From Rhizobiaceae bacterium (lineage in GTDB: Bacteria > Pseudomonadota > Alphaproteobacteria > Rhizobiales > Rhizobiaceae): DNA of 58,477 nucleotides. Shown piece by piece: positions 2,079-19,897 of this stretch. The stretch spans positions 1 to 58,477 of the forward strand of contig JASJDO010000006.1 of the NCBI GenBank assembly GCA_030065115.1, in the 5' to 3' direction. Both the position numbers and the translations under genes were made by a program. Positions within the stretch are counted from its first letter, which is position 1. Every line of letters starts with the position of its first letter. The notes under the pieces were generated by a model. The model was not told where the DNA came from, made no database searches, and worked only from the letters and a program-made list of their open reading frames with translations.

Positions 2079-3416
2079 ATGAATGTCGATACTGGATTTT
2101 CAATCCAAAACCGAAAAATCGATCCAGACAAAAAACCTTCGACGCGTCCGGACGGGTCACCAATCGACAATGATCGAATTGAAATCGGACCGACACCCCT
2201 TGCCTTTTTTGAATGGGAGCGGGTCGGAATTGCTGCACCGGATTTGGCCGGGATGCGCGAATATCGTCATGCACGCTTGGTCAATGAAATACGCAAAAGA
2301 GATTATGGCGCCGTTTTGATGACGGACCCACTCAACATCCGATATGCAACTGACAGCACAAACATGCAGCTATGGAATACGCATAATCCATTCCGTGCTT
2401 GTGCGGTATTTGCAGATGGCTACATGGTTCTTTGGGATTACAAGAACTCGATGTTTCTTGCGGATCACAATCCGCTAGTCAATGAAGTCCGCTCCGGGGC
2501 GTCAATGTTCTACTTTTGCAATGGAGATAAGGTCGTTGATGATGCAAACCTGTTTTCCCATCAGATCGCTGACCTGATGAAAGAGCATTGTGGGCAGAAT
2601 AACCGGATCGCCGTAGACAAGATCATGATTGCCGGGCTTCGAGCTCTGGAAGCACGAGGCCTTGAAGTGCATGAAGGTGAAGAGGTCACCGAAAAGGCCC
2701 GGGTCATCAAGGGGAAAGATGAAATTGCTGCAATGCGCTGCGCGGTTCATGCGTGTGAAAAGTCTGTGCGCGCAATGGAAGATTCCGCGTCAGCAGGAAT
2801 GACTGAAGATGACATCTGGGCAGTTCTTCATGCTGAAAACATAAAACGTGGCGGTGAGTGGATAGAAACGCGCCTTCTGGCATCAGGGCCACGGACTTTT
2901 CCATGGTTTCAGGAATGCGGCCCGCGGGTGATACAGGACAACGAGATCGTCGCCTTCGATACCGATCTTATCGGTTGCTACGGAATGTGCGTAGACATTT
3001 CCCGCACGTTCTTTGTTGGCGATGACGGCCCAACTGAAAAGATGAAGGAATATTACAAAATTGCCCATGATCATATCATGATCAACATGGATCTTCTTGC
3101 GCCAGGTGTTTCATTCAAGGAACTCACATTCGGAGGACACCAGTTGCCAGAGGAAGTTGTGCCCGGCCAATATAGTTGTCGTTTCCATGGTGTCGGGCTT
3201 TGTGATGAATGGCCATTGATTGCCTATGCCAAAGAGTATCGTGATGGAGCATATGATTATGAACTCGAACCCGGCATGATGCTTTGTGTCGAAGCGCTGG
3301 TTGGCTCGGAGGAAGCGGGTTTCTCGATCAAACTGGAAGATCAGGTTCTGATCACGGAAGACGGATATGAAAACCTGACGAATTATCCCTATGATGAACG
3401 GTTTCTGAAAAGCTGA
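2079..3416 (+). CDS. dddP: Dimethylsulfoniopropionate lyase DddP (M24 peptidase fold)
   Basis: DddP cleaves DMSP to dimethyl sulfide and acrylate in the cytoplasm using a di-metal centre built on the M24 aminopeptidase fold. This 445-residue protein has the family's usual length and hallmark segments such as TDSTNMQLWN (about 91-100) and HNPFRA. The metal ligands known from DddP structures line up: D294, D296, D306, H370, E405 and E420, with the proposed catalytic Asp at D376 in GLCDEWPL. The start has a GGAG ribosome site. No acrylate-use genes (acuI, prpE) or DMSP transporter sit next to it; it appears to be a single-gene unit. The alternative, a plain Xaa-Pro peptidase, is less likely given these hallmarks. 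Confidence 0.92.
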   Translation: MNVDTGFSIQNRKIDPDKKPSTRPDGSPIDNDRIEIGPTPLAFFEWERVGIAAPDLAGMREYRHARLVNEIRKRDYGAVLMTDPLNIRYATDSTNMQLWNTHNPFRACAVFADGYMVLWDYKNSMFLADHNPLVNEVRSGASMFYFCNGDKVVDDANLFSHQIADLMKEHCGQNNRIAVDKIMIAGLRALEARGLEVHEGEEVTEKARVIKGKDEIAAMRCAVHACEKSVRAMEDSASAGMTEDDIWAVLHAENIKRGGEWIETRLLASGPRTFPWFQECGPRVIQDNEIVAFDTDLIGCYGMCVDISRTFFVGDDGPTEKMKEYYKIAHDHIMINMDLLAPGVSFKELTFGGHQLPEEVVPGQYSCRFHGVGLCDEWPLIAYAKEYRDGAYDYELEPGMMLCVEALVGSEEAGFSIKLEDQVLITEDGYENLTNYPYDERFLKS

Positions 3417-6516: not shown

Positions 6517-6912
6517 TTATAACTGGCCTGCTTCTTCAAGCACTTTTCGGGCCACACGGAAGCACTCAAGCCCCATGGGAACACCGCAATAAATCGCTAC
6601 TACATGGACGATTGCGCGGATCTCTTCTTTGGTGACCCCGTTATTCAATGCACCCCTGCAGTGAATTTCCCACTCATGCATGCGGCCGAGCGCCCCAATC
6701 ATGGAAAGATTCATCATGGAACGGGTTTTAGCGTCAATGACATCATCCCCCCATCCGAAGCCCCAGCACCAGGCGGTCATCGCTTCCTGAAACGGGCGAG
6801 TAAAATCGTCAGCAGCAGCCAGATTTTTCTCAACATATTCGCCACCCAAGGTGGATTTGCGCTGCTCCAGCCCCTTTAAAAAGAGGTCTTCATCAAAGAT
6901 ATTGCTCGTCAT
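6517..6912 (-). CDS. Carboxymuconolactone decarboxylase-family protein
   Basis: A 131-residue single-domain CMD/AhpD-like protein, PcaC length. The core is seen in FGWGDDVIDAKTRSMMNL, RMHEWEIHCRGALNNGVT and EEIRAIVHVVAIYCGVPM; the CxxC of AhpD is absent, so a peroxidase role is unlikely. It is the last gene of the nine-gene amine operon, 32 bases after the dehydrogenase. In such operons CMD proteins are usually hydrolases, decarboxylases or isomerases acting on a pathway intermediate. True protocatechuate-pathway PcaC is unlikely because no other pca gene is present. Its reaction here is unknown. Confidence 0.8.
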   Translation of the reverse strand: MTSNIFDEDLFLKGLEQRKSTLGGEYVEKNLAAADDFTRPFQEAMTAWCWGFGWGDDVIDAKTRSMMNLSMIGALGRMHEWEIHCRGALNNGVTKEEIRAIVHVVAIYCGVPMGLECFRVARKVLEEAGQL

Positions 6913-6944
6913 TTCAATTTTTCCCGATCATCAATGCGCTGGTA

Positions 6945-7877
6945 TCAGGAGCGCAGTTTTCTGGTCGACTTCAACATAGCTGTAATCAATGCATCCCGGG
7001 TAGTAGAAAGTTCATCCACACCCGCTTTTCCTGCTTCATCGCGCACCCCATCACTGAGGATTTGCGCAACATTCGGATTTAGTCGTGGATTACCGAGATC
7101 ATCCCACCATCGATTGAAACTAGGGGTATAGCGTTCACAAAATGCATCTAACCCACCTTCTCCGGCGCCTAAGTGAAACAACATGGTAGGTCCCATGGCG
7201 GCCCAACGAAGCCCCGGCCCTGACCAAACTGCCTTATCGACATCCTCAACAGAAGCCACTCTTTCATTCACGAGATGAATTGCTTCGCGCCACAATGCGG
7301 CTTGTAGGCGGTTTGCAACATGACCCGGCACTTCCTTGTTAACGCGGATTGTCACTTTACCCACAGACTTATAGAAATTTTCCCCTATCTCCAAAACATC
7401 CTCATCTGTTTTCTCGTTTGCGAGTAATTCAACCAGCGGAATAAGATGAGGAGGGTTGAACGGATGACCCAGAATAAAGCGCGACGGGTTTGACCAACCC
7501 GCCTGCATCTCCTTGACCATAAGCCCAGATGCAGACGAGCAAACAATTGCTTCAGGTTCCAGGCGAGATTCGATCTCGGCAAAGGTTGCATGTTTTATCT
7601 CAATACGTTCGGGCACATTCTCCTGAACAAAACCGCAACCCTCTACTGCATCTCCAGCAGAGTCGAAAAATTGTAGCGTGCCCTTTCTGCCTTCAACCGC
7701 AAGACCGAGCTCCAACAGGGTGGGCCATGCATTTTCCACATACGCCTCCACATCGTTCCGAGCCGTTAGCGAAATATCAAAAACATTCACATCCTTACCC
7801 GCCGCAAGGAACAGGGCGGTCCAACTGGCGCCAATAACGCCGGCGCCCAAAACGGCGGTTTTTTGAATGTCACTCAT
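6945..7877 (-). CDS. L-carnitine dehydrogenase-like 3-hydroxyacyl dehydrogenase
   Basis: A 310-residue NAD-dependent dehydrogenase. It has an N-terminal Rossmann motif GAGVIGASW (residues 11-19), the catalytic-His segment GHPFNPPHLIPLVEL, and the C-terminal helical 3-hydroxyacyl-CoA dehydrogenase domain. This family includes L-carnitine 3-dehydrogenase, lambda-crystallin-like enzymes and hydroxybutyryl-CoA dehydrogenases. The BKACE gene upstream acts on 3-keto acids and cleaves 3-dehydrocarnitine in carnitine degraders, so a carnitine-type substrate is the best guess. The ATG at 7877 overlaps the SDR stop by one base (TGATG). No fused thioesterase domain is present, unlike in some carnitine dehydrogenases. 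Confidence 0.78.
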   Translation of the reverse strand: MSDIQKTAVLGAGVIGASWTALFLAAGKDVNVFDISLTARNDVEAYVENAWPTLLELGLAVEGRKGTLQFFDSAGDAVEGCGFVQENVPERIEIKHATFAEIESRLEPEAIVCSSASGLMVKEMQAGWSNPSRFILGHPFNPPHLIPLVELLANEKTDEDVLEIGENFYKSVGKVTIRVNKEVPGHVANRLQAALWREAIHLVNERVASVEDVDKAVWSGPGLRWAAMGPTMLFHLGAGEGGLDAFCERYTPSFNRWWDDLGNPRLNPNVAQILSDGVRDEAGKAGVDELSTTRDALITAMLKSTRKLRS

Positions 7878-8620
7878 CAAAATAATCCCGGATTAAGAGG
7901 GGAGGCGGCGGTCATCCCACCATCAAGTGTGTAGCATTGTCCGGTTGCAAAGCTTGAAGCATCGCTCGCCAACCAGACTGCCATGGCAGCAATATCTTGC
8001 GGCTTTCCAAAGCGGCGCATGGCGTGGCGTGACAAAGCATCTTCTTTTGCCTTCACGGGATCATTTGCCAGATCAAAGCCAGCGTCCAGCATCCCGGTTT
8101 CAATCCAGCCAGGACAAATCGCATTGCAACGAATGTTCGGCCCATGATCAACCGCAATGGAGCGCGTTAAACCATGAACAAATGCTTTGGATGCGTTGTA
8201 TAGCGCCATGGAAGGATCCGCCACTTTACCGGAGATCGATCCTATGTTGATGATCGATCCGCCCCCATTCATCTTCGGAATAAAGGCACGGCACAGGTTG
8301 AATACGCCCTTTGCATTGGCACCGATGACCAGGTCCCAATCCGTATCACTGCTTTCCGTAACTGTCTTTTCAACCTGAATGCCCGCATTGTTTACAAGAA
8401 TATCGCAGGCACCAAACATTTCCGCAAACCGAGTAACGCCTTGGCTGTCAGACACATCCAAAGTCTGCCAATCGACTATGTCCGGTAAATCACCGGGGCG
8501 TTGCCCACGACCACAGGTTACAACCTTGGCATCTTCCGCAATAAATGCATCAACGATGCCTCGGCCAATACCCTGTCGACCGCCGGTTACAATCGCTGTC
8601 TTTACTGCAAGAACACCCAT
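7877..8620 (-). CDS. SDR-family oxidoreductase (classical)
   Basis: A 247-residue classical short-chain dehydrogenase: cofactor motif TGGRQGIGRG near the N-terminus, NNAG at about 83, the catalytic Ser in INIGSISG, and Y-x3-K in YNASK. The C-terminus ends with the usual YTLDGG segment. It is the seventh gene of the amine operon, two bases after the aldehyde dehydrogenase gene and overlapping the next gene by one base. It probably oxidises or reduces a hydroxy/keto intermediate, but the substrate cannot be read from sequence. It differs clearly from the second SDR in the operon (11551-12330), so the two are likely to act at different steps. Confidence 0.88.
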   Translation of the reverse strand: MGVLAVKTAIVTGGRQGIGRGIVDAFIAEDAKVVTCGRGQRPGDLPDIVDWQTLDVSDSQGVTRFAEMFGACDILVNNAGIQVEKTVTESSDTDWDLVIGANAKGVFNLCRAFIPKMNGGGSIINIGSISGKVADPSMALYNASKAFVHGLTRSIAVDHGPNIRCNAICPGWIETGMLDAGFDLANDPVKAKEDALSRHAMRRFGKPQDIAAMAVWLASDASSFATGQCYTLDGGMTAASPLNPGLF

Positions 8621-8622
8621 CG

Positions 8623-10041
8623 TTAATGTGCAACCATGACATGGCGGATGGCTGTGTATGCGTCCAGTGAATAGACTGACATATCACACCCTGTCCCTGA
8701 ACCTTTCATGGCAGCCCATGGCATCTCCGGAGTACCAACGCCATGGGTATTCACCCAAGTGAACCCGTATCTTAGCGAAGAAGAAACGCGCATTGCCCGG
8801 CCCACGTCAGCGGTAAATACTGAAGACGCCAGGCCATAGCGGCCTGCGTTCGCTGTGTTGATTGCTTCCTCTTCGTTCTTGAAACGGGAAATGGTCACCA
8901 CAGGACCAAAGACTTCATTGGTTGCAATATCTGCCTTATTGTCCACATTTGCGACGATGGTCGGATCATAGAAAAAGCCCGGACCTTCACCTGATTTTCC
9001 GCCGCAAACAATATCGCTTGAACTACGCGCTTTATCCACAAATGCTGCCACGCGCTGGCGCTGAATATCACTGACAATCGGCCCCATTTCAGTGCCTTCT
9101 TCTTTTTGCTTACCGACCTTGATTTGCTTGACCTGATCTTCAATGGCAGCAACCAGCTTCTCATAAACACCCTCAGAAGCCATAACGCGACACGGTTGTG
9201 CACAATCCTGTCCGGCATTGAAAAACGAGCCATAACGAACCGTCTCAGCCACCGCATCGATATCCGCATCGTCAAACACAATGACAGGCGCTTTACCGCC
9301 GAGCTCAAGATGCACATGGCGAATTTGGTTGGATGCTGCCCTCATCGCAGCCATCCCCGTTTGTGGCGAACCGGTTATGGAAATTGCCTCTGCTTGCGGA
9401 GAATTGATCAGACGGTCGCCGACAGTGGCACCCTCGCCATGGATGACATTCAGCACACCCTTTGGCAGCACATCAGAAAGCAGTTCTGCAGCGCGGAGCG
9501 TGGAAAGAGGGGTGATTTCCGATGGCTTGAGCGCGACTGTGCACCCGGCAGCCAAAGGTGCGGCAAGCTTCCATGAGGCCATCATCAATGGATAGTTCCA
9601 TGGCGCAATGGCGGCGACCGGTCCAACCGGATCGCGCCGGATCATGGAGGTATGGCCTTCAACATATTCACCTGCCGCAGACCCGGACATGGTGCGTGCA
9701 GCACCTGCAAAGAAGCGGAACGTATCAATGGTCAGCGGCATCTCGTCATCATGTGCAGACGGCCAAGGTTTACCTACATCAAGGCTTTCCAATTCCGCTA
9801 ACTCCTGTGCGTTTTCTTCCAGAACATCAGCGATTTCCAGCAATAGCGCTGAACGTTCAGCAGGCGTTGTCTTTCGAAACGTTTCAAATGCTTCTTCCGC
9901 ACCACGGATGGCTGTGTCTATTTGCTCGTCGCTTGCTTCGTTTACTTGAGCTATTTCTGCACCCGTTGCCGGGTCGATAATCGGCAATGCTGCTCCTGCA
10001 CCTTCAACAAGCTCACCATTTATCAGTAATTTGGTTTGCAT
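8623..10041 (-). CDS. Aldehyde dehydrogenase, PatD/betaine-aldehyde type
   Basis: A 472-residue NAD-dependent aldehyde dehydrogenase. The nearest family by eye is 4-aminobutyraldehyde dehydrogenase (PatD/YdcW): ESLDVGKP, SMIRRDPVGPV and IAPWNYPLMMASWK are typical. The catalytic Glu is in HLELGGKAP and the catalytic Cys in NAGQDC. These enzymes oxidise amino- or trimethylamino-aldehydes to the acid, which fits a quaternary-amine pathway. The start is the ATG at 10041, preceded by a strong GGAGGAGAAG site; a longer reading to 10074 would lack one. It lies 49 bases after the BKACE gene. Confidence 0.88.
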   Translation of the reverse strand: MQTKLLINGELVEGAGAALPIIDPATGAEIAQVNEASDEQIDTAIRGAEEAFETFRKTTPAERSALLLEIADVLEENAQELAELESLDVGKPWPSAHDDEMPLTIDTFRFFAGAARTMSGSAAGEYVEGHTSMIRRDPVGPVAAIAPWNYPLMMASWKLAAPLAAGCTVALKPSEITPLSTLRAAELLSDVLPKGVLNVIHGEGATVGDRLINSPQAEAISITGSPQTGMAAMRAASNQIRHVHLELGGKAPVIVFDDADIDAVAETVRYGSFFNAGQDCAQPCRVMASEGVYEKLVAAIEDQVKQIKVGKQKEEGTEMGPIVSDIQRQRVAAFVDKARSSSDIVCGGKSGEGPGFFYDPTIVANVDNKADIATNEVFGPVVTISRFKNEEEAINTANAGRYGLASSVFTADVGRAMRVSSSLRYGFTWVNTHGVGTPEMPWAAMKGSGTGCDMSVYSLDAYTAIRHVMVAH

Positions 10042-10090
10042 CTTCTCCTCCGATTTTTTGCCGCTACAGGCCACACTCTGCGTTGATTTT

Positions 10091-11023
10091 CTAGAACTTC
10101 ACCCGATCTCCGCCCTTCAGAGCAAGCCGTTCACGCGCTTCATCCGGTGTTGCAACCGTCAGTCCCAGATTTTCAATGATTGACCTGATTCTGGTTACTT
10201 GTTCAGCGTTTGAAGTCGCCAGTTTTTTCGGCCCGATGTAAAGCGAGTCCTCGAGCCCAACCCGCAAGTTTCCACCCAACATTGCGGATTGCGTTGCAAA
10301 CGGCATTTGGTGACGGCCTGCTGCCAGAACCGACCACTCATAGTTCTCTTCTCCAAAAAGCTTGTTTGCGATGGTGTGCATGTGCATCAGGTTATCAAGG
10401 TCAGCACCTGCACCGCCCAGTATGCCAAAGACCATCTGAATAAAAAATGGCGGCTTGATCAGCCCTTTATCGACGAACCATTTCACATTGTAGAGGTGAC
10501 CAAGATCGTAGCACTCAAACTCAAATTTTGTGCCGTGCCCCTCACCCAATTCTTTCAAAGCATATTCAATGGTTCGGAATGTGTTGGGAAAAATGAAGTC
10601 TTTGGTCATTTCCAAAAAAGGCTCTTCCCAATCATGCTGCCATTCGGAATGTTTTTCCAGCATCGGGAAAATACCAAAGTTCATGGATCCCATGTTCAGC
10701 GATGCCATTTCCGGGCTGGCTGTTGTTGCAGCCAACAGCCGCTCATCCATGGTCATGCCCAAACCACCACCTGTAGAAACATTAATCACCGCATCGCTAG
10801 ACTGTTTGATAACCGGCAAAAACTGGTTGAAAATTTCAGGTCTTGGATCAGGCTTTCCTGTTTCAGGGTCACGCGCATGCAGATGAATGATGGAAGCTCC
10901 TGCTTCAGCTGCTTCGATGGATGCCGTTGCAATCTCGGCTGGCGTTATCGGCAGGTGCGGCGACATGGTTGGCGTGTGAATGCCGCCAGTTGGTGCGCAG
11001 GTGATGATTACTGATTTTGACAT
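10091..11023 (-). CDS. Beta-keto acid cleavage enzyme (BKACE, DUF849 family)
   Basis: A 310-residue TIM-barrel protein of the BKACE family, whose founder is 3-keto-5-aminohexanoate cleavage enzyme (Kce). These zinc enzymes condense a beta-keto acid with acetyl-CoA to give acetoacetate and a new CoA thioester. The metal-binding HLHARDP motif (IIHLHARDPETG, about residues 45-56) and the N-terminal ITCAPTGG are visible. In carnitine degraders a BKACE turns 3-dehydrocarnitine into betainyl-CoA, and the dehydrogenase downstream could supply that substrate. The exact keto acid is not readable from sequence. Confidence 0.9.
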   Translation of the reverse strand: MSKSVIITCAPTGGIHTPTMSPHLPITPAEIATASIEAAEAGASIIHLHARDPETGKPDPRPEIFNQFLPVIKQSSDAVINVSTGGGLGMTMDERLLAATTASPEMASLNMGSMNFGIFPMLEKHSEWQHDWEEPFLEMTKDFIFPNTFRTIEYALKELGEGHGTKFEFECYDLGHLYNVKWFVDKGLIKPPFFIQMVFGILGGAGADLDNLMHMHTIANKLFGEENYEWSVLAAGRHQMPFATQSAMLGGNLRVGLEDSLYIGPKKLATSNAEQVTRIRSIIENLGLTVATPDEARERLALKGGDRVKF

Positions 11024-11026
11024 TAC

Positions 11027-11554
11027 TTATCCCTTCAACTTGGCAAGTGCACGCTGAGCACGACGCGCTACTGATTTCCGGGTTTCAGAAGACAATCGCT
11101 CGAGGTGTGGCATCAACCAAGCCTGCAAATCCGCATTATCCTTCGCCAGACGGGCCAAATATTCGATTGAATTGTTCAGAACGATCCAGTCATCATTATT
11201 AGCAAGATTGCGTTTTACGAGCGCCAGTGCCTTCGACTTTTGATCGGAGGTCATTGCGGCTTCTGCGCCCTCAAACAGCTTCGGCAAAGTCCATTGGGCT
11301 GATGGCTGGTCCAATTCTCCAATTTCATTGATCAAACGGTCAATGAAAGGGACAAGCAATTCTGGTTGCTCGGCTTGTACGCGGCGCATGGCATTGGAGA
11401 CGCGAAGACGAACTACCTCGTCCTCGCTGGAATAACAGTCATAGAGTTCTGAAAACCGTCTGCCATCAGCCAAGACAATATCAACAACCTCAATTGTCCT
11501 GCCCAATGAATTGGGATGACCGCCAGTTAACATTTCTTCAAATTCGTTGATCAT
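11027..11554 (-). CDS. HEAT-repeat-like protein of unknown function
   Basis: A 175-residue all-helical protein with no signal peptide and no catalytic motif that I recognise. Repeating helix pairs such as VVRLRVSNAMRRV, AQWTLPKLFEGAEAAM and WIVLNNSIEYLARLA suggest a short HEAT/ARM solenoid. The ATG at 11554 overlaps the preceding SDR stop by four bases (ATGA), which argues for a real, coupled gene. Its position inside a catabolic operon suggests a scaffold or a chaperone for one of the enzymes, but this is a guess. The C-terminus is rich in Arg and Lys. Confidence 0.75.
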   Translation of the reverse strand: MINEFEEMLTGGHPNSLGRTIEVVDIVLADGRRFSELYDCYSSEDEVVRLRVSNAMRRVQAEQPELLVPFIDRLINEIGELDQPSAQWTLPKLFEGAEAAMTSDQKSKALALVKRNLANNDDWIVLNNSIEYLARLAKDNADLQAWLMPHLERLSSETRKSVARRAQRALAKLKG

Positions 11555-12330
11555 AGCTTCATCTGCTGTACTTGGGCGGAAAGCCCGCCATCGATTACCC
11601 AAAGCTGGCCCGCCGCATAACGTGCTTCGTCAGAGGCAAGCCAATTCACCAGATTGGCGATATCTTCAGGTTTTCCGTAGGTCCGCATGGGATGGACGTC
11701 GCGCACTGCCTGTTGCAACGTTTCAATATTGCCACCGCTGCCGCCTGAGCCATCGCCTTCAAAGAAAGATTGCAGCATGGGCGTGTCGACATAACCGGGA
11801 CAAATTGCATTGACGCGAATGCCTTCCGGCCCATGGTCACAGGCCATGGCTTTGGTCAGCGCATGGACCGCGCCTTTGGTCGCGCAATAGGCGGCAAGAC
11901 CGGGGTCCGCGATATATCCATCATAAGAACCAAAGTTTATGACTGAAGAACCGTTTGAGTTTTGTTCGGCGGATTTTCGTAACAAAGGCAGGGCATATTT
12001 TGATGTCAGGAACATGCCCGTCACATTGATCGCAAATATCCGATTCCACTGCTCCAGCGTCGTGTTCTCAATCGTCTCTTCGATCTCAATGCCCGCCGCA
12101 TTGACAAGAATATCCAGTTTGTCCCAACGATCACCCAAACTGCTGAATGTTTTAAATACACCAGCTTCATCTGTGACATCAAACTTCACGAATTCACCGG
12201 CACCACCATTATCAGACAGGTCGGCTGCAACAACCTCTGCCCCTTCACGTTCAAACCGCTCACAAATCGCAGAGCCAATCCCGCCGGTACCGCCCGTCAC
12301 AAACGCCGTTTTCCCCTCCAAGACTCCCAT
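11551..12330 (-). CDS. SDR-family oxidoreductase (classical)
   Basis: A 259-residue classical SDR with TGGTGGIGSA, NAAG (replacing the usual NNAG), the catalytic Ser in NFGSYDGY and Y-x3-K in YCATK. D at about residue 37 (AADLSD) suggests NAD rather than NADP. The ATG at 12330 shares one base with the Rieske gene stop (TGATG), and its own stop overlaps the HEAT-like gene. A 3-hydroxybutyrate-dehydrogenase-like or hydroxy-amine dehydrogenase role is possible. It is the third gene of the operon, directly after the oxygenase. Confidence 0.88.
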   Translation of the reverse strand: MGVLEGKTAFVTGGTGGIGSAICERFEREGAEVVAADLSDNGGAGEFVKFDVTDEAGVFKTFSSLGDRWDKLDILVNAAGIEIEETIENTTLEQWNRIFAINVTGMFLTSKYALPLLRKSAEQNSNGSSVINFGSYDGYIADPGLAAYCATKGAVHALTKAMACDHGPEGIRVNAICPGYVDTPMLQSFFEGDGSGGSGGNIETLQQAVRDVHPMRTYGKPEDIANLVNWLASDEARYAAGQLWVIDGGLSAQVQQMKL

Positions 12331-13469
12331 CAAACAACTGCCTTTTTGTAGTGATCGAGAACAAGACCGTGAAAGTGATGCACCGCATGTTCCGATTTTC
12401 CGGAGCCATCGGGATCATGCACGATCCGGCCCTGATCAAAGGCCGGCGTATTCATGCCGCGCTGGACGCTCTCAACCAGATTGATGTCTTCCACCTGAAG
12501 CACTTCATCCAGATATCGAATGGCTTCTTTCTCTGTTTCATCAGGTTCTGGGGTTTCCAGATAAAAGTCATAGGTTTCGTAGGTAAGATCAGGACCAGCA
12601 GGAATGATGTTCAATACAATCATGGAAGACCGGCCCGGATATCGCATCAGACAGGTGGTTGGCCAAAGCCACCAGACCGCATGAGTTCGAACAGTAGCAT
12701 TTGAAACATCATAAGCGGCATTTGGTGAATTGCCTGCATCAGCCATGTGACTGGAATAAATGCCGTGCGTGGTCACCTTATAAGTGTCCATGTCGACCAG
12801 TTCGCAAAAATCCTTGTGAGCAGTTGGGCAGTGGTAACATTCAAGAAAATTGTCGACGACATTCTTCCAGTTCGACTTGATCTCATAAGTCAGACGATGT
12901 CCGAAGGTGAGTTGATCGATATCCGGTGCCCAATGACGTATTTCAGTCTCCAGGTCCCCAGATTGCTCGTGCAAAGACGATGCATTGGGATCGAGATTTA
13001 CGTAAATAAACCCGCAGAACTCCTCGACCTGAACCTGATCCAGGCAAATGTTTTCCAGTTTGAATTCTTCCAGATGTTCTGTGTGTGGTGCACGCGCAAG
13101 TTGCCCATCAAGCTTGTATACCCAAGCGTGGTAGGGACACATGATGCGGGTGGTGTTGCCATCGCCGGAGAGAAGTTCATGCGCACGATGTTTGCAGACA
13201 TTGTAGAACGCGCGCAGTTCACCATCGCGGTCACGTACAACTGCAATCGGCTTCCCCGCAATCTGAACGGTAGTATAAGATCCTGGCTCTCTTACCTTTT
13301 CTACGTGACACACCCACTGCCAAGACCGGGCGATGACCGCTTGCTGATCAAGATCAAACCATCGAGGATCGACATAAGCCTCAGCCTTCAAAGAAAATGA
13401 CCTTCTCGGATTGTCGTCATAGCCTCCCGCCAATCGCGAAAAATCTTCAGAACCAAGGCTTATTGTCAT
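12330..13469 (-). CDS. Rieske oxygenase alpha subunit, CntA/YeaW-like
   Basis: A 379-residue oxygenase that resembles carnitine monooxygenase CntA/YeaW and stachydrine demethylase more than GbcA. The Rieske [2Fe-2S] ligands are C92-x-H94 and C111-x2-H114. The mononuclear iron ligands are H213, H218 and D328, with the bridging acid of this subfamily as Glu (E210 in NFLECYHC). Such enzymes hydroxylate next to a quaternary ammonium group and release trimethylamine or an N-methyl as formaldehyde. No reductase (CntB-like ferredoxin reductase) is encoded in the window, so electrons must come from elsewhere. It lies 11 bases after the sulfatase gene. Confidence 0.9.
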   Translation of the reverse strand: MTISLGSEDFSRLAGGYDDNPRRSFSLKAEAYVDPRWFDLDQQAVIARSWQWVCHVEKVREPGSYTTVQIAGKPIAVVRDRDGELRAFYNVCKHRAHELLSGDGNTTRIMCPYHAWVYKLDGQLARAPHTEHLEEFKLENICLDQVQVEEFCGFIYVNLDPNASSLHEQSGDLETEIRHWAPDIDQLTFGHRLTYEIKSNWKNVVDNFLECYHCPTAHKDFCELVDMDTYKVTTHGIYSSHMADAGNSPNAAYDVSNATVRTHAVWWLWPTTCLMRYPGRSSMIVLNIIPAGPDLTYETYDFYLETPEPDETEKEAIRYLDEVLQVEDINLVESVQRGMNTPAFDQGRIVHDPDGSGKSEHAVHHFHGLVLDHYKKAVV

Positions 13470-13480
13470 GACAATCTCCG

Positions 13481-15010
13481 TCAGTCTTTAACCGGGGGAT
13501 AGCGGAATCTGGCATCCGCAACCGCCCAGTCCATGTGATTACGTACATATTGCTGCGAAGCGTCTGAAGGCGGATTATAGTCCCAGGCTTCGCCAGCGCC
13601 CGCCTCCATTGCTGCATGAAGGGCGCGGCGCGATTTTTGTGTCTTGATGACGTTTTCCCGCAAGGTATCACTGTCCCAGCGCTCAGCAACTTCGGCAGCA
13701 AATTTGTCAGCAATCCCAGAATAATCCGGATCGGAGGCAAGGTTCACCTTCTCGAGTGGGTCTTTGGAAATGTCGTATAGTTGTGCTGGATCGGGATCAC
13801 AATGAATGTATTTGTATTGTCCCCGCCGGATCATAAACACCGGCCATGGGGTCATCTCTGCACAATATTCGCCGATTGCTTCGTCAACCGTATCTTTCCT
13901 GCCCCGGGCGAGCGGCATCAGACTGCGACCATCAATGGGCTCACCCAGATCGTTTTCACTGCCTCCTGCAATGTCGATGAAAGTCGGCAACATATCCACG
14001 AGGGAACATGCGTTTTGAGCGGACCCAGTCGCGACGCCCGGCCCAGCCATGATCAAAGGAATGCGCGCGGAATGCTCAAAGAAATTCATTTTGAACCACA
14101 AACCACGCTCCCCAAGCATGTCACCATGGTCAGCGGTTACAATGATGATTGTATTTTCCAACTCATCAATTTCTTCGAGTGTTTTAACCAGCGAGCCGAT
14201 TTTGCTGTCAAAGTAGCTGACATTTGCCAGATAAGCTCGACGCGCGCGACGCACTTCTTCATCGGTCAGAGGAATGTAACTTGCTTCGATACCGTCCATG
14301 ACACGGCGCGCGAAAGGATCCTGCTCTTCCGGTTGCAGAACGTATTCGGGCATATCAATTTCATCATCAGAATAAAGATCCCACCACTCTGGTCTCGCCA
14401 CATAGGGGTCATGAGGATGAATGAAACTGGCAATCATCGCAAAGGGGGCATCTTTACCGGTTGTCTTGTCCCGCGCATAATCGAATAGCCAGCGTTTTGC
14501 AGCAAACTCCACTTCGTCATCATAGTCGATTTGATAAGTCGCGCTGGCAACGCCACTTTCCTTGACGGTCTGCATGTTGTGATACCATTTATCGATTCGC
14601 TCATCATGCGCTTCCCAATCCGGCGTCCAAGCAAAATCGGCTGGATAAATGTCCGTTGTCACTCGATCCTCAAACCCGTGTTTTTGGTCTGGCCCCACAA
14701 AATGCATTTTACCTGAGAGGCATGTACGATATCCAAGCGCTTTGAGATAATGGGCGAACGTAGGCACTGTAGCCTTGAATTCCGACGCATTGTCATAGGC
14801 CGCAATCCGGGAAATCAATTGGCCAGACATGAAGGCAAAACGAGACGGGGCACAAAGCGGCGAGTTGCAGTAGGCCGCGTCAAAGCGCATTCCTTTAGCA
14901 GCAAGCGCGTCCATGTGTGGGGTTTTTACTATCCTGTGCCCGTAACATCCGGTGAAGTGTGGTGCCAGCTGATCGGCCATAATGACCAGAATATTGGGTT
15001 TTGATGCCAT
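13481..15010 (-). CDS. betC: Choline-sulfatase-like sulfatase (BetC family)
   Basis: A 509-residue type I sulfatase. The formylglycine site is C53 in LCAPSR (C-x-P-x-R), with metal ligands in MADQ near residue 13 and in TADHGDMLGERGLWFK. Long stretches match Sinorhizobium BetC by eye, for example SGKMHFVGPDQ, TTDIYPADF and the C-terminal choline-sulfatase tail VRNHMD. BetC hydrolyses choline-O-sulfate to choline and sulfate in the cytoplasm, and no signal peptide is seen. The start is the ATG at 15010 with a GAGGAG site. It is the first gene of the operon, but no betA/betB/betI follows, so the true substrate may be another sulfate ester. Confidence 0.85.
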   Translation of the reverse strand: MASKPNILVIMADQLAPHFTGCYGHRIVKTPHMDALAAKGMRFDAAYCNSPLCAPSRFAFMSGQLISRIAAYDNASEFKATVPTFAHYLKALGYRTCLSGKMHFVGPDQKHGFEDRVTTDIYPADFAWTPDWEAHDERIDKWYHNMQTVKESGVASATYQIDYDDEVEFAAKRWLFDYARDKTTGKDAPFAMIASFIHPHDPYVARPEWWDLYSDDEIDMPEYVLQPEEQDPFARRVMDGIEASYIPLTDEEVRRARRAYLANVSYFDSKIGSLVKTLEEIDELENTIIIVTADHGDMLGERGLWFKMNFFEHSARIPLIMAGPGVATGSAQNACSLVDMLPTFIDIAGGSENDLGEPIDGRSLMPLARGRKDTVDEAIGEYCAEMTPWPVFMIRRGQYKYIHCDPDPAQLYDISKDPLEKVNLASDPDYSGIADKFAAEVAERWDSDTLRENVIKTQKSRRALHAAMEAGAGEAWDYNPPSDASQQYVRNHMDWAVADARFRYPPVKD

Positions 15011-15030
15011 GTAAGCGTTTCTCCTCAAAG

Positions 15031-15041: not shown

Positions 15042-15097
15042 AAAGATTTGCGAAAATATTTGACTTTTTTAGCCATCTGCTTTTGATTTTTCGCCAT

Positions 15098-16111
15098 ATG
15101 AGTAATGATCCAACCTTTCGCGAATTCACAATAGGCATGCTGTTGTTCGATGGGTTTAATTCCCTGGCAATGCATGCGTTCATCGATCCCTTTCGGTCAG
15201 CCAACTATTTGCGGGGTGAGTCCTTGTATCGATGGGAATTCATCGGCTTCGAGGCCGATTGTGTGACAGCAAGCAATGGTCTGACCATCTCCAGCCTCAA
15301 AACCCATCCGGATATATCGGAACCTCTTGACCTGCTGGTGGTCAATGCAAGTTGGGGCGTAAGCCACCTTAAATCTCCTAAACTCCTTAGCTGGCTCAGA
15401 GATCAATCCAGCAGGGGTGTCACACTTTGCGGCCTCGATACCGGGGCATTCATTTTGGCCTTTGCGGGTTTGCTCAAAGGTCGGCGGGCAGCGGTTCACT
15501 ATGAGCACATCGCCGCCTTTCGTGAGCTGTTTCCCGATGTCGCCATGGGGGAAGAGATGTTCATCGTCGATGGTGATCGGCTGACCTGTTCCGGAGGATT
15601 GGCCTCCAGCGATCTGGCGCTTGAGATCATCCGGCTTCAGCAAGGAATGGAACTGGCCAATGCATCGGGCAGATACATATTTCACGAGCGTCTTCGCAAC
15701 GGTGACGAAGGTCAATTGTCGGAACATCAGGAGCCTGTTGGTTATGCCGCGCCCGAGAAACTGCGGGAAGCCATTATCCTGATGGAACGCACTCTTGAGC
15801 AACCGCTGGATATTGGCGAAGTGGCAAAGACGGTTGGTATTTCGCAACGCCAACTGGATCGCTTGTTCAACAAACACACCGGCGTGTCTCCCGTCAGGTA
15901 TTATCTGGACGTTCGACTTGATCGGGCACGTGGACTGGTCACACAGACCGAGCTGCCAATCTTAACCGTTGCTGTTGCATGCGGTTTCAGTTCAAACGCA
16001 CAGTTCAGTCGCACCTACCGAAAACGGTTTGGCATCTCTCCAAGTCAGGATCGCATTGAGGGCAGAGTGCCGTTTCAGTTTCGATCGTTCCCGAGTCATG
16101 CCGGTGTTTAA
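15098..16111 (+). CDS. GlxA-family AraC-type transcriptional regulator
   Basis: A 337-residue regulator with an N-terminal DJ-1/PfpI-like sensor domain (about 10-185, for example [20 protein letters not shown]) and a C-terminal AraC helix-turn-helix pair (about 220-320: [18 protein letters not shown] and [20 protein letters not shown]). This architecture is that of GbdR, CdhR and SouR, which sense glycine betaine, carnitine or dimethylglycine. It is divergent from the nine-gene amine operon, so it probably activates that operon. The ATG at 15098 is used; a TTG 15 bases upstream is possible. Its stop shares the bases TTA with the ureG stop on the other strand. Confidence 0.88.
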
Positions 16112-16710
16112 AGACCGCCCTGTTCTTTAAGAAAACTCACGACCTCGCGGCAGGCATCGCCTCGTTTTGCATCTGTAAACACAAATGGCTTGTCCCCGCG
16201 TTGAATGTTTGCATCGCGGTCCATGACATCAAGATCGGCCCCAACATAAGGAGCGAGGTCCTTTTTGTTGATGATCAACAAATCAGACCGCGTGATACCC
16301 GGACCGCCCTTGCGCGGAATTTCTTCGCCCTGACAGACAGAGATCACATAAAGGGTGATATCCGCGAGTTCCGGCGAGAATGTTGCTGCCAGATTGTCAC
16401 CTCCGGATTCGATAAACACCACATCCAAATTGGGATGCGTGTTGTTGAGATCAGCAATCGCCCGCAAGTTGATCGAGGCATCTTCACGAATGGCGGTATG
16501 CGGGCATCCGCCCGTCTCAACGCCGATTATGCGGTCTGAAGTTAACGCCTGCATGCGCACCAGTGCATCACGATCTTCCTGCGTGTAAATGTCATTGGTT
16601 ACCACACCAACTGAATACTCATCCCGCATTGCTTTGCAAAGTTCAGCCGTGATGGTGGTTTTGCCAGACCCTACAGGGCCACCGATACCAACTCTCAGTG
16701 GGCCGTTCAT
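16108..16710 (-). CDS. ureG: Urease accessory GTPase UreG
   Basis: A 200-residue SIMIBI-class GTPase that delivers nickel to urease together with UreD, UreF and UreE. The Walker A motif [10 protein letters not shown] is at residues 9-18. The CPH nickel site is visible in [16 protein letters not shown], and the guanine-specificity NKKD in [12 protein letters not shown]. It is the last gene of the urease operon. Its stop overlaps the stop of the convergent regulator gene by three bases, with no space for a terminator between them. Confidence 0.97.
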
Positions 16711-17084
16711 TCGTTTTCTCCGAATATTTCCAAGGCTGAATTGAGAGCATTAATGGCAGCCGGAAATCCTCCATACAGGGCCATTTGCCAAATTACTTCT
16801 CCAATTTCTCGCTCTGAAGCACCTGCTTTCAATGCGCCTTCAATGTTGACTTTCAATTGGGGTTTCGTTTGCCCGCCCAAAGCTGTAAGTGCCGCAATCG
16901 TCGCCAAATACCGGGTTTTCAAATCAAGGCCTTCACGAGCATATTGCTGTCCATAGGCAAAATCGACAATCGATCGCGAAAGCCCCGGAACAATTTTACC
17001 GTAACGTTTCTCGAGAGCTGCTTCCATGCCGGGATTGAGTTCTTCAGAAAGCAGCTTTCCCTGCTCATAAGTATCATTGCTCAA
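16707..17084 (-). CDS. Carboxymuconolactone decarboxylase-family protein in urease operon
   Basis: A 125-residue CMD-like protein ([38 protein letters not shown], and [20 protein letters not shown]). It has no CxxC, so it is not an AhpD peroxidase. It is encoded between ureF and ureG with 4-base overlaps on both sides, so it is translated with the nickel-insertion proteins. The start appears to be a TTG at 17084 overlapping the ureF stop; the first in-frame ATG is about 20 codons inside and would cut the domain. CMD proteins are not standard urease accessory factors, and the role is unknown. Confidence 0.8.
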
Positions 17085-18184: not shown

Positions 18185-19897
18185 CTAAAACAAAAAATAC
18201 CGCTGTGCCATGGGCACTACATCTGCTGGTTCGCAGGTGAGCAATTCTCCATTCGCGTGGACTTCATAGGTTTCCGGATGCACGTCAATTTCTGGTGTTA
18301 GATCATTCAGTACCATCGCAGATTTGCCAATGCCGCCACGCGTGTTTTCAACTGCAAGCAAGCGTTTTTCAACACCAAGCTTGGAACCGAGATCATCTTC
18401 CTTGGCTGCTTTGGAAACAAAGGTCACGGATGAATTGGTCAGCGACTTGCCGAACGCACCAAACATGGGCCGCATGTGAACGGGTTGCGGTGTTGGGATA
18501 GACGCATTCGGATCACCCATGGGAGCAGCCGCAATTGTGCCACCAATTAAAACCATGTCCGGCTTTACGCCAAAGAATGCCGGAGACCACATGACAAGGT
18601 CAGCTCGCTTTCCGACCTCAAGCGAGCCGATATGCTTGTCGATGCCGTGAGCAATTGCTGGGTTGATGGTATATTTTGCTATGTAACGGCGGACACGAAG
18701 ATTGTCATTATCGCCCTGCTCATCCGCCAGCCTACCACGCTGACGTTTCATTTTGTCAGCCGTCTGCCAGGTACGGATCAAGACCTCACCGACGCGTCCC
18801 ATTGCCTGACTGTCCGATGCGATGATGGAGAAAGCACCCATGTCATGCAGAATGTCTTCAGCGGCAATCGTCTCCTTGCGGATGCGGCTTTCAGCAAAGG
18901 CCACATCTTCCGGAATGTTGTTGTCGAGGTGGTGGCACACCATCAGCATATCGAGATGCTCATCCAATGTGTTGACTGTGTAAGGCCGTGTCGGGTTGGT
19001 GGACGATGGCAATACGTTGTCCAGCCCACACACCTTGATGATGTCCGGCGCATGACCGCCACCAGCACCTTCTGTATGGAACGCGTGAATGGTGCGGCCA
19101 TCAATCGCCTTGATCGTGTTCTCAACAAAGCCGGACTCGTTCAGCGTATCGGTGTGGATCATGACTTGAACATCATAGTCATCAGCAACCGACAGACAGC
19201 AATCAATCGCACCGGGGGTCGTGCCCCAATCCTCATGCAGTTTCATGGCGCAAGCACCGGCCTTCACCATTTCTTCCAAAGCTGCCGGCAAAGACGCATT
19301 GCCCTTACAGGAAAGGCCAATGTTCATCGGGAAGGCATCCATGGATTGGATCATCCGCCCAATATGCCACGGGCCGGGAGTGCAGGTCGTCGCCAGCGTC
19401 CCGTGTGCCGGACCCGTTCCGCCACCCAGCATGGTCGTGACGCCAGACATCAAGGCTTCTTCAATCTGCTGCGGGCAAATAAAGTGAATGTGGCTGTCAA
19501 ACCCGCCAGCGGTGACAATTTTACCCTCACCCGCAATCGCTTCTGTGCCTGGCCCAATGATGATATCGACATCAGGTTGCGTATCCGGATTTCCCGCCTT
19601 GCCAATGGCCGCGATCTCGCCGCTTTTGAGGCCAATATCCGCCTTGTAAATTCCAGTGTGGTCGACAATCAACGCATTGGTGATCACCGTATCCACTGCA
19701 CCTTCTGCGCGGGTGATCTGACTTTGGCCCATGCCGTCACGAATGACCTTACCACCACCAAACTTTACCTCTTCGCCATAGGTGGTCAGGTCTTTTTCAA
19801 CCTCAATGAAGAGTTCCGTATCCGCAAGGCGGACTTTGTCACCGGTCGTGGGGCCAAACATATCTGCATAGGCAGCTCTTGAAATGGATGCCGGCAT
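18185..19897 (-). CDS. ureC: Urease alpha subunit UreC
   Basis: The 570-residue catalytic subunit of urease, which hydrolyses urea to ammonia and carbamate. Bacterial UreC is about 567-572 residues, so it is full length. The nickel-site residues are visible: HIH in the [10 protein letters not shown] segment, the carbamylated Lys in [10 protein letters not shown], the His in MIHTDTLNE and in [13 protein letters not shown], and the Asp in SDSQAMGR. The flap Cys/His is in MVCHHL. The ATG shares one base with the ureB stop. It lies in the order ureDABCEF-CMD-ureG, typical of alphaproteobacteria except for the inserted CMD gene. Confidence 0.99.

Follow-up and report, generated by a model that had tools for sequence, protein, structure and literature searches.

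Algae and plants use quaternary amines and the corresponding sulfate esters as major osmolytes that contain nitrogen and sulfur. The described systems closest to the locus studied here are the bet operon (betI-betC-betA-betB; S. meliloti, R. pomeroyi), the cdhABC carnitine pathway (carnitine 3-dehydrogenase, BKACE and betainyl-CoA thioesterase) and the Rieske-type carnitine monooxygenase CntA/CntB (YeaW/YeaX). In choline sulfatase, Glu386 reads the quaternary ammonium group (PMC5870055). For CntA-like Rieske oxygenases (group Va), the roles of a pi-cation aromatic residue and a bridging Glu have been described; in the sections of that paper used here, the group Va substrates are carnitine, choline and benzalkonium, with no C3 hydroxylase among the enzymes, and demethylating group Vb enzymes carry Asn at the aromatic position (PMC7948474). 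An active-site grouping of beta-keto acid cleavage enzymes (BKACEs) includes a group for positively charged substrates (dehydrocarnitine) (PMC4922564). The physiological substrate of BKACE15 is given as unknown, with a gene context said to suggest aromatics, in the part of the source drawn on here (PMC11961710).

The window, the whole stretch of DNA analysed, comprises 58,477 nucleotides of a Rhizobiaceae contig (JASJDO010000006.1, assembly GCA_030065115.1). As the first-pass annotation had described, nine tightly packed minus-strand genes lie behind a divergent GlxA-type regulator: nine ORFs, all open, span 6517-15028 (BetC ATG at 15010), neighbouring genes being separated by roughly -4 to +49 bases if likely start codons, picked by eye, are used. 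Pfam and NCBIfam agree with its family calls for eight of the nine ORFs, the exception being the HEAT-like ORF, for which the profile search gave no family above cut-off. The features are as follows.

15083..16111, plus strand: divergent GlxA/GbdR-type regulator with an AraC HTH (HTH_18, 85 bits)
13481..15010, minus strand: BETC, predicted choline-sulfatase-family sulfatase of a distinct clade (TIGR03417, 708 bits, cut-off 433)
12330..13469, minus strand: RIE, CntA-like (group Va) Rieske oxygenase alpha subunit (Rieske/Ring_hydroxyl_A; solved relative CntA 6y8j)
11551..12333, minus strand: SDR1, short-chain dehydrogenase, partner of RIE (Pfam/NCBIfam)
11027..11554, minus strand: HEAT-like all-helical protein, a local addition whose ATG at 11554 overlaps the stop codon of SDR1
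10091..11023, minus strand: BKACE, near BKACE15 and 3E02 (PF05853; NF053538)
8623..10041, minus strand: ALDH of aminobutyraldehyde/betaine-aldehyde type (NF010000; ATG at 10041 within an ORF open from 10074)
7877..8620, minus strand: SDR2, short-chain dehydrogenase (Pfam/NCBIfam)
6945..7880, minus strand: HCDH, 3-hydroxy acid dehydrogenase, kin of carnitine dehydrogenase and lambda-crystallin (3HCDH; 311 aa)
6517..6912, minus strand: CMD, PcaC-like carboxymuconolactone decarboxylase family, a local addition (PF02627, 66 bits)

GbdR (NF052371) is the best model for the regulator, which scores 277 bits against a cut-off of 480. CMD likewise stays below the cut-off of TIGR02425 (119 vs 156 bits), and the single-sequence fold of the HEAT-like protein consists of helices only, at low confidence (pLDDT 60). 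Promoter and terminator scans gave counts like those of shuffled sequence (9 vs 9.0 and 8 vs 10.3). A dddP gene is located some 3 kb past the operon; DMSP-related use, checked at the window locus only, was not kept.

Rieske genes with 76-93% identity to RIE mark 80 loci in GTDB genomes at which the gene cluster recurs, so its clustering is not a matter of chance. Partners were counted at the 61 homologous loci with enough flanking sequence (full-context loci): SDR1 and SDR2 are each present at 60 of these, HCDH at 57, BKACE at 47, BETC at 46 and ALDH at 41, with a regulator homolog (at least 44% identity) at 55. Sulfatase, Rieske oxygenase and BKACE, the combination singled out in the first-pass annotation, co-occur at 35 of the 61, all eight genes are present at 29, and gene order is largely conserved across loci. 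The linkage also holds in all six annotated plasmid loci inspected, and the operon occurs in records named Rhodobacterales and Rhizobiales as well as on a Pseudomonas plasmid. The operon is a genuine unit, found again in many bacteria of sea and soil, and very probably serves to degrade a positively charged, choline-like compound together with its sulfate ester. Its proposed nine-gene extent has to be trimmed: at the thresholds used, the HEAT-like and CMD genes were found at none of the 80 other loci (CMD relatives of only 33-34% identity lie near two, L038 and L042), so that the recurring unit consists of seven genes and the regulator. Within this unit BKACE is missing from 14/61 and ALDH from 20/61 full-context loci, and nine of the 16 genomes with a BKACE-less locus have no BKACE match elsewhere at E 1e-60; neither enzyme is therefore obligatory. 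Smaller linkages are found off the locus, namely BETC with BKACE (L163, L164), BETC with SDR2 alone (L162) and HCDH adjoining BKACE without a RIE ortholog in two of ten HCDH contexts (L202, L206). These pairs, with the co-occurrence across taxa, bear out the functional linkage that had been proposed.

BETC passes the choline sulfatase equivalog TIGR03417 and is 47% identical to S. meliloti choline sulfatase. The choline sulfatase catalytic set (Asp14, Cys54, His104, His201, Asp296, His297 and Lys309) and Glu386 are all kept in the window BETC (in its own numbering, Cys59, His206, Lys313 and Glu391, the last equivalent to Glu386) and in 69/69 operon-type BETC sequences. The C-terminal tail departs from the choline sulfatase pattern, with Leu499, Asp500, Leu502 and Arg507 corresponding to Trp, Ala, Ala and Arg. 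Position 499 (Trp501 in the window) is Trp in all 69 operon-type sequences, and the six canonical choline sulfatases all have Leu at both 499 and 502. Judged by its sequence, BETC is a clade of its own within the choline-sulfatase family, with an altered substrate tunnel; since the tunnel Leu499 is Trp in every operon-type member, the ester may not be choline-O-sulfate. BETC is the genome's only BetC above cut-off (assembly rated 94% complete). The reported absence of betA and betB holds for the nine operon genes and the regulator, which is why the standard choline-sulfate pathway was rejected for this locus, but not genome-wide for betA, which is encoded on another contig (853 vs a cut-off of 732).

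RIE has CntA (6y8j) as its closest solved relative (E 5e-79) and is 36-38% identical to CntA-type enzymes. Residues F208, E210, H213, H218 and D328 are present in 87/87 sequences, F208 and E210 representing the aromatic residue at CntA position 203 and the bridging Glu205. This group Va pi-cation aromatic, together with the Glu386 equivalent of BETC, supports the quaternary-amine theme of the first-pass annotation. The carnitine pocket of CntA is largely replaced: Phe258, Asn270, Tyr295, Tyr315 and Phe319 become Thr or His (alignments differ), Met, Tyr, Leu and Leu, with one of five kept, and the resulting pocket is nearly invariant, its sole variation being Leu/Ile in 5/87 sequences. RIE also falls far below the glycine betaine monooxygenase GbcA model (NF058607, 154 bits over the N-terminal half vs 670) and carries Phe, not Asn, at 203. 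No electron-donor reductase (CntB-like) was found among the window operon genes.

BKACE matches PF05853 (352 bits, cut-off 24.8) and NF053538 (3,5-dioxohexanoate:acetyl-CoA; 509 vs 430), a model whose name refers to a keto acid without charge. It is 62% identical to 3E02 and 58% to BKACE15 (P. denitrificans, 8RIO), retaining the catalytic Glu171 and Arg254 of the latter, compared with 40% to the BKACE of a separate carnitine cluster (L123) in the same genome; overall identity thus gives no support to a 3-dehydrocarnitine-type assignment. The carnitine-dehydrogenase identity of HCDH did not stand, since the protein lacks a thioesterase domain and scores below both carnitine 3-dehydrogenase models (NF005471, 252 vs 414; NF005716, 235 vs 592). 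Because the separate cluster does meet the carnitine 3-dehydrogenase model (719 vs 592), and because HCDH, BKACE and the RIE pocket are unlike the carnitine type, carnitine was dropped as the leading substrate. ALDH meets the aminobutyraldehyde dehydrogenase model NF010000 (665 bits vs 615), with 1wnb as its best solved relative; SDR1 and SDR2 matched no solved structure at the strict E-values of 1e-50 and 1e-45.

Some of the loci are flanked by ABC transporters of choline/betaine type. At three plasmid loci their binding proteins score 48-60 bits against a choline model cut-off of 379, and the one compared with solved structures (L036) is nearest to 4xz6, which we take to be the TMAO-binding protein TmoX; they were accordingly rejected as ligand reporters. 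Downstream of its operon, Pseudomonas MPC6 encodes a VanB-type reductase, a protein homologous to the thioesterase portion of carnitine 3-dehydrogenase (112 bits, profile positions 345-492, the end of that dehydrogenase) and a choline-binding protein above the TIGR03414 cut-off. At L125, relatives of RIE (48%) and an SDR (47%) lie beside a choline/betaine-type transporter and apparent sarcosine oxidase genes, named by eye. Directly after a trimethylamine monooxygenase gene (Tmm; 816 vs 675) in the 1.4-Mb genome G030 comes a RIE relative (41%); the window's genome encodes a 65% homolog of that monooxygenase. Across the operon genomes, 32/78 have Tmm, compared with 28/120 in one family (p 0.011, unmatched background), and none was found over cut-off in the other 46 (one of these, G305, has Tmm split over two contigs); this weak enrichment was rejected as proof of trimethylamine release.

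The best explanation, for which as a whole we judge the chances evenly balanced, is that the operon's products form a single aerobic route for the breakdown of a trimethylammonium alcohol and, with BETC, of its sulfate ester, and that RIE-SDR1-SDR2-HCDH form the core with BETC, BKACE and ALDH as modules gained or lost, the most economical substrate candidate being choline-O-sulfate or one of its near homologs. BETC would cleave the sulfate ester by hydrolysis, as its family and quaternary-amine glutamate suggest. RIE, served by an electron donor encoded elsewhere, would then grip the ammonium head via F208 and oxygenate the carbon chain, by analogy with CntA most likely at the carbon adjoining nitrogen, yielding trimethylamine and an aldehyde. 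SDR1, SDR2 and ALDH would oxidise the resulting alcohols and aldehyde, in an order that we infer, after which HCDH could convert a beta-hydroxy acid to a beta-keto acid and BKACE, with acetyl-CoA, could give an acyl-CoA and acetoacetate, the pairing resting on their linkage. The GbdR-like regulator, by family and position, probably exerts control. Since choline offers no beta-hydroxy acid for HCDH and BKACE, these steps do not close as one balanced choline pathway; a charged acyl-CoA of betainyl-like type is what the Pseudomonas thioesterase speaks for, and an uncharged keto acid what the BKACE model speaks for. Also weighing against the route are the genomes in which Tmm or BKACE was missing at the cut-offs used, the Trp at position 499 of BETC and the lack of a RIE reductase in the window operon. 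Of the single route first proposed, the linkage and the quaternary-amine theme stand, and the carnitine-type HCDH and BKACE, the nine-gene extent and an obligatory BKACE and ALDH are not supported.

We consider it unlikely, though it fares best among the alternatives, that a carnitine analogue is instead shortened to a betaine, with SDR and ALDH producing a gamma-butyrobetaine-like acid, RIE hydroxylating C3 with the amine kept, HCDH and BKACE forming a betainyl-type CoA and a thioesterase freeing that betaine. The aminobutyraldehyde class of ALDH, the kinship of HCDH with carnitine dehydrogenase, the MPC6 thioesterase homolog and an HCDH-BKACE pair mirroring the genome's own carnitine cluster are all consistent with this; however, HCDH fails the carnitine models, BKACE is distant from the carnitine-cluster enzyme, the group Va enzymes described in the sections of PMC7948474 used here include no C3 hydroxylase, and the thioesterase is present in one of the six annotated plasmid loci. 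Improbable, too, is a scavenging island of separate quaternary-amine enzymes under a common regulator: BETC, BKACE and ALDH do come and go among loci, and of seven operon-type BETC genes located off the locus four stand without an operon-gene ortholog alongside, but the largely conserved gene order, the nearly invariant RIE pocket and the loci holding all eight genes oppose it. The least probable reading is a funnel to glycine betaine, in which BETC and the dehydrogenases supply choline-derived betaine, carnitine-like acids enter via HCDH and BKACE, and RIE stands in for GbcA or MtgBCD in demethylating glycine betaine to dimethylglycine, since the GbdR-like regulator (below cut-off) and the sarcosine oxidase neighbourhood of L125 are outweighed by the Phe where group Vb enzymes have Asn (PMC7948474, same sections), the GbcA score and the lack of a role for SDR1 and SDR2, the most conserved partners.

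The operon brings known enzyme families together in a new way, and no published description of the gene set was found in titles or abstract openings among the matches listed for open-licence PMC. More tentatively, it may represent a widespread aerobic pathway not described before: enzymes of a new choline-sulfatase-like clade would release a quaternary-amine alcohol, from which a new Rieske subgroup would remove trimethylamine, the leftover carbon being finished by a dehydrogenase and acetyl-CoA-dependent beta-keto acid cleavage. Its presence in both roseobacters and rhizobia hints that one such osmolyte has a fate still to be mapped, possibly as a trimethylamine source. It also offers three recognisable subfamilies for assay (Rieske, sulfatase and HCDH) and places in a concrete physiological setting a type of BKACE for which the part of PMC11961710 drawn on here gives the natural role as unknown.

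Compared with the bet operon, the locus shares the fGly cysteine and the quaternary-ammonium glutamate but is without betA, betB and betI, and its BETC, a separate clade by sequence with Trp/Ala in the tunnel tail, is linked to a Rieske oxygenase, SDRs, HCDH and BKACE. With CntA/CntB it has in common the Rieske alpha subunit, the pi-cation aromatic, the bridging Glu and the Fe triad, whereas RIE has Met, Leu and Leu for Asn270, Tyr315 and Phe319 and no CntB-like reductase accompanies it in the window operon. A beta-hydroxy acid dehydrogenase, a BKACE and a GlxA-type regulator are common to this operon and the cdhABC pathway, although HCDH meets neither carnitine 3-dehydrogenase model and BKACE reaches only 40% identity. 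It is with BKACE15 and 3E02 that the window BKACE shares the catalytic Glu171/Arg254 and the higher identities of 58% and 62%, respectively.

The operon is real and conserved, and among the open PMC papers listed in literature searches no title or abstract opening presents its gene set. In the window, nine closely packed minus-strand ORFs at 6517-15028 run in the order choline-sulfatase-family gene (BETC), CntA-like Rieske oxygenase alpha subunit (RIE), short-chain dehydrogenase SDR1, HEAT-like ORF, beta-keto acid cleavage enzyme (BKACE), aldehyde dehydrogenase (ALDH), short-chain dehydrogenase SDR2, carnitine-dehydrogenase-related 3-hydroxy acid dehydrogenase (HCDH) and carboxymuconolactone decarboxylase family gene (CMD), beside one divergent gene:

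15083-16111, divergent from the nine minus-strand ORFs: GlxA-type regulator

Family models agree with the first-pass annotation for eight of the nine ORFs; the HEAT-like ORF matches no family model above cut-off, and its predicted fold is all-helical at low confidence (single-sequence prediction, pLDDT 60). Its probable start codon (ATG, 11554) overlaps the stop codon of SDR1 (11551), the same arrangement as in coupled operons. About 3 kb past the operon's 3' end lies dddP, encoding a DMSP lyase (2079-3416, plus strand; 747 against a model cut-off of 600). By eye, a small minus-strand ORF (16707-17084) between apparent ureG and ureF genes of a urease cluster encodes a second CMD-resembling protein near the operon's CMD gene; urease alpha is at 18185-19897.

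A RIE scan of GTDB contigs returned at least 80 loci at 76-93% identity, among 444 stretches encoding some relative. A gene was scored as present when its identity to the window's protein passed a threshold, and the counts cover the 61 of 80 loci whose Rieske gene is flanked by at least 3.5 kb upstream and at least 7.5 kb downstream (19 loci were excluded). SDR1 and SDR2 each recur in 60/61, HCDH in 57/61, GlxA in 55/61, BKACE in 47/61, BETC in 46/61 and ALDH in 41/61, with all eight recurring genes present in 29/61. The first-pass annotation was thus right to link these genes, and the neighbourhood check that it named finds BETC, RIE and BKACE together in 35/61. Its count of nine genes does not hold, since the HEAT-like ORF and CMD pass the thresholds in 0/61; CMD relatives at 33-34%, under threshold, lie near two loci (L038 and L042). 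RIE orthologs are rare across a broad sample of the source's class, with one in 288 other genomes (G176, 74%; next best 48%), and genome G429 carries another complete copy without BETC (L200, genes at 48-76%). A plasmid collection contains 41 records that match, 10 of them at 60-80% identity to RIE. The six viewed (hosts Roseovarius, Shinella, Mesorhizobium, Pseudomonas sp. MPC6, Alisedimentitalea and Ruegeria) all carry GlxA, RIE, HCDH and two SDR genes, with BKACE and ALDH in 5/6 each and BETC in 3/6. IS30, IS66 and IS6 genes near the operon on the Roseovarius (L034), Mesorhizobium (L036) and Pseudomonas (L037) plasmids are in keeping with transfer between lineages.

Among 20 genomes with a BETC-less locus, seven encode an operon-type BETC (59-75%) elsewhere, 12 have copies solely at the canonical level (44-50%), and one has no BETC anywhere at the threshold used. 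Five of the 20 hold both types; in a sixth, G336, the second copy (38%) is interrupted by a stop. Two of the seven off-locus operon-type genes adjoin BKACE (L163, L164) and one adjoins SDR2 (L162); the other four have no operon-gene ortholog alongside, one of them (L160) having an SDR at 31%. Ten contexts of HCDH relatives include BKACE adjacent in two (L202, L206), the full operon in one (L200) and no BKACE in seven. In 16 genomes with a BKACE-less locus, two have an 85-86% ortholog elsewhere, five only 51-67% relatives and nine no BKACE at E 1e-60; BKACE is therefore linked to the operon yet dispensable.

BETC passes the choline-sulfatase model (708 against a cut-off of 433) and is identical to the Sinorhizobium meliloti choline sulfatase at 238 of 503 residues. 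All 69 of 69 operon-type sequences retain the residues that serve as metal ligands, nucleophile and acid, together with the equivalent of Glu386, which recognises the quaternary ammonium (PMC5870055). Leu499 of the canonical tunnel-lining tail is replaced by Trp, and Leu502 by Ala or Val, in 69/69, whereas the six canonical sequences compared have Leu at both. Operon-type BETC forms a single clade (support 0.996) in a tree with just those six, one as root. Because Glu386 is kept and the tail residues are changed, the substrate is likely a quaternary-amine sulfate ester, and choline-O-sulfate itself is less certain.

The carnitine-like roles first proposed for HCDH and BKACE were not borne out. 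HCDH scores under the cut-offs of both carnitine-dehydrogenase models, and in a separate cluster of the same genome (L123) a carnitine 3-dehydrogenase that does score over cut-off lies with a BKACE and a regulator of the GlxA type. The window BKACE, which retains Glu171 and Arg254, is 40% identical to that carnitine-cluster BKACE, 62% to 3E02 and 58% to BKACE15, which accepts beta-ketohexanoate, 3,5-dioxohexanoate and malonate semialdehyde and whose natural role is unknown (PMC11961710). The family is divided into charged- and uncharged-substrate groups (PMC4922564), and the closest relative with a known activity suggests a beta-keto acid without charge, in which case the amine may already have left before the BKACE step; counting against this, the gene after the Pseudomonas operon copy encodes a homolog of the thioesterase portion of carnitine 3-dehydrogenase. 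A balanced route from choline through both HCDH and BKACE could not be drawn up, so the substrate would have a longer chain than choline, or these two enzymes would take another input. Enzyme classes, conserved linkage and quaternary-amine recognition residues are legible in the sequences; we infer the order of steps, the identity of the acid, the regulation and a C-N cleavage by RIE. The available portions of two accounts treat betABC in roseobacters, with no mention there of a Rieske enzyme (PMC4744692), and R. pomeroyi proteomes on choline, carnitine and glycine betaine, naming BetABC, CdhABC and MtgBCD (PMC12478193).

In G030, a 1.4 Mb genome that looks SAR11-like, L129 7982-10653 encodes trimethylamine monooxygenase (Tmm; 816 against 675) and, immediately after it on that strand, a CntA-like Rieske oxygenase (41% to RIE), a candidate for a trimethylamine-forming step; an apparent sarcosine oxidase gene lies near the pair. 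The window's genome also encodes a homolog of this Tmm at 65% identity (TRIMETHYLAMINE). Among 78 genomes from the 80 operon loci, Tmm is over cut-off in 32 (21/41 chosen for varied gene content and 11/37 others; G305, split across two contigs, scored as absent), a weak enrichment over 28/120 in one Ruegeria-containing family (p 0.011), an unmatched background that may include operon genomes.

The window's genome encodes further Rieske oxygenases of the RIE type:

L120, 9102-10334: Rieske oxygenase
L121, 9790-10956: Rieske oxygenase; the gene adjoins choline/betaine-type ABC transporter genes
L122, 8969-10048: Rieske oxygenase; neighbouring genes resemble those for hydroxyproline-betaine epimerases

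Relatives at about 41-48% to RIE have pocket sets that differ from that of RIE, one of them shared by L120 and L129. The nearest solved protein to RIE is CntA, in which Tyr203 is the pi-cation aromatic (Phe allowed) and Glu205 the bridging residue; enzymes carrying this aromatic are assigned to group Va, which acts on carnitine, choline and benzalkonium, whereas demethylating group Vb enzymes have Asn in its place (PMC7948474). The aromatic, Glu205 and the iron triad are retained in 87/87 RIE sequences. Compared with the CntA pocket, Tyr225 and Tyr295 are unchanged, whereas Asn270 becomes Met and Phe319 Leu in 87/87, Tyr315 becomes Leu in 82/87 and Ile in five, and the Phe258 position is Thr by one alignment and His by another.
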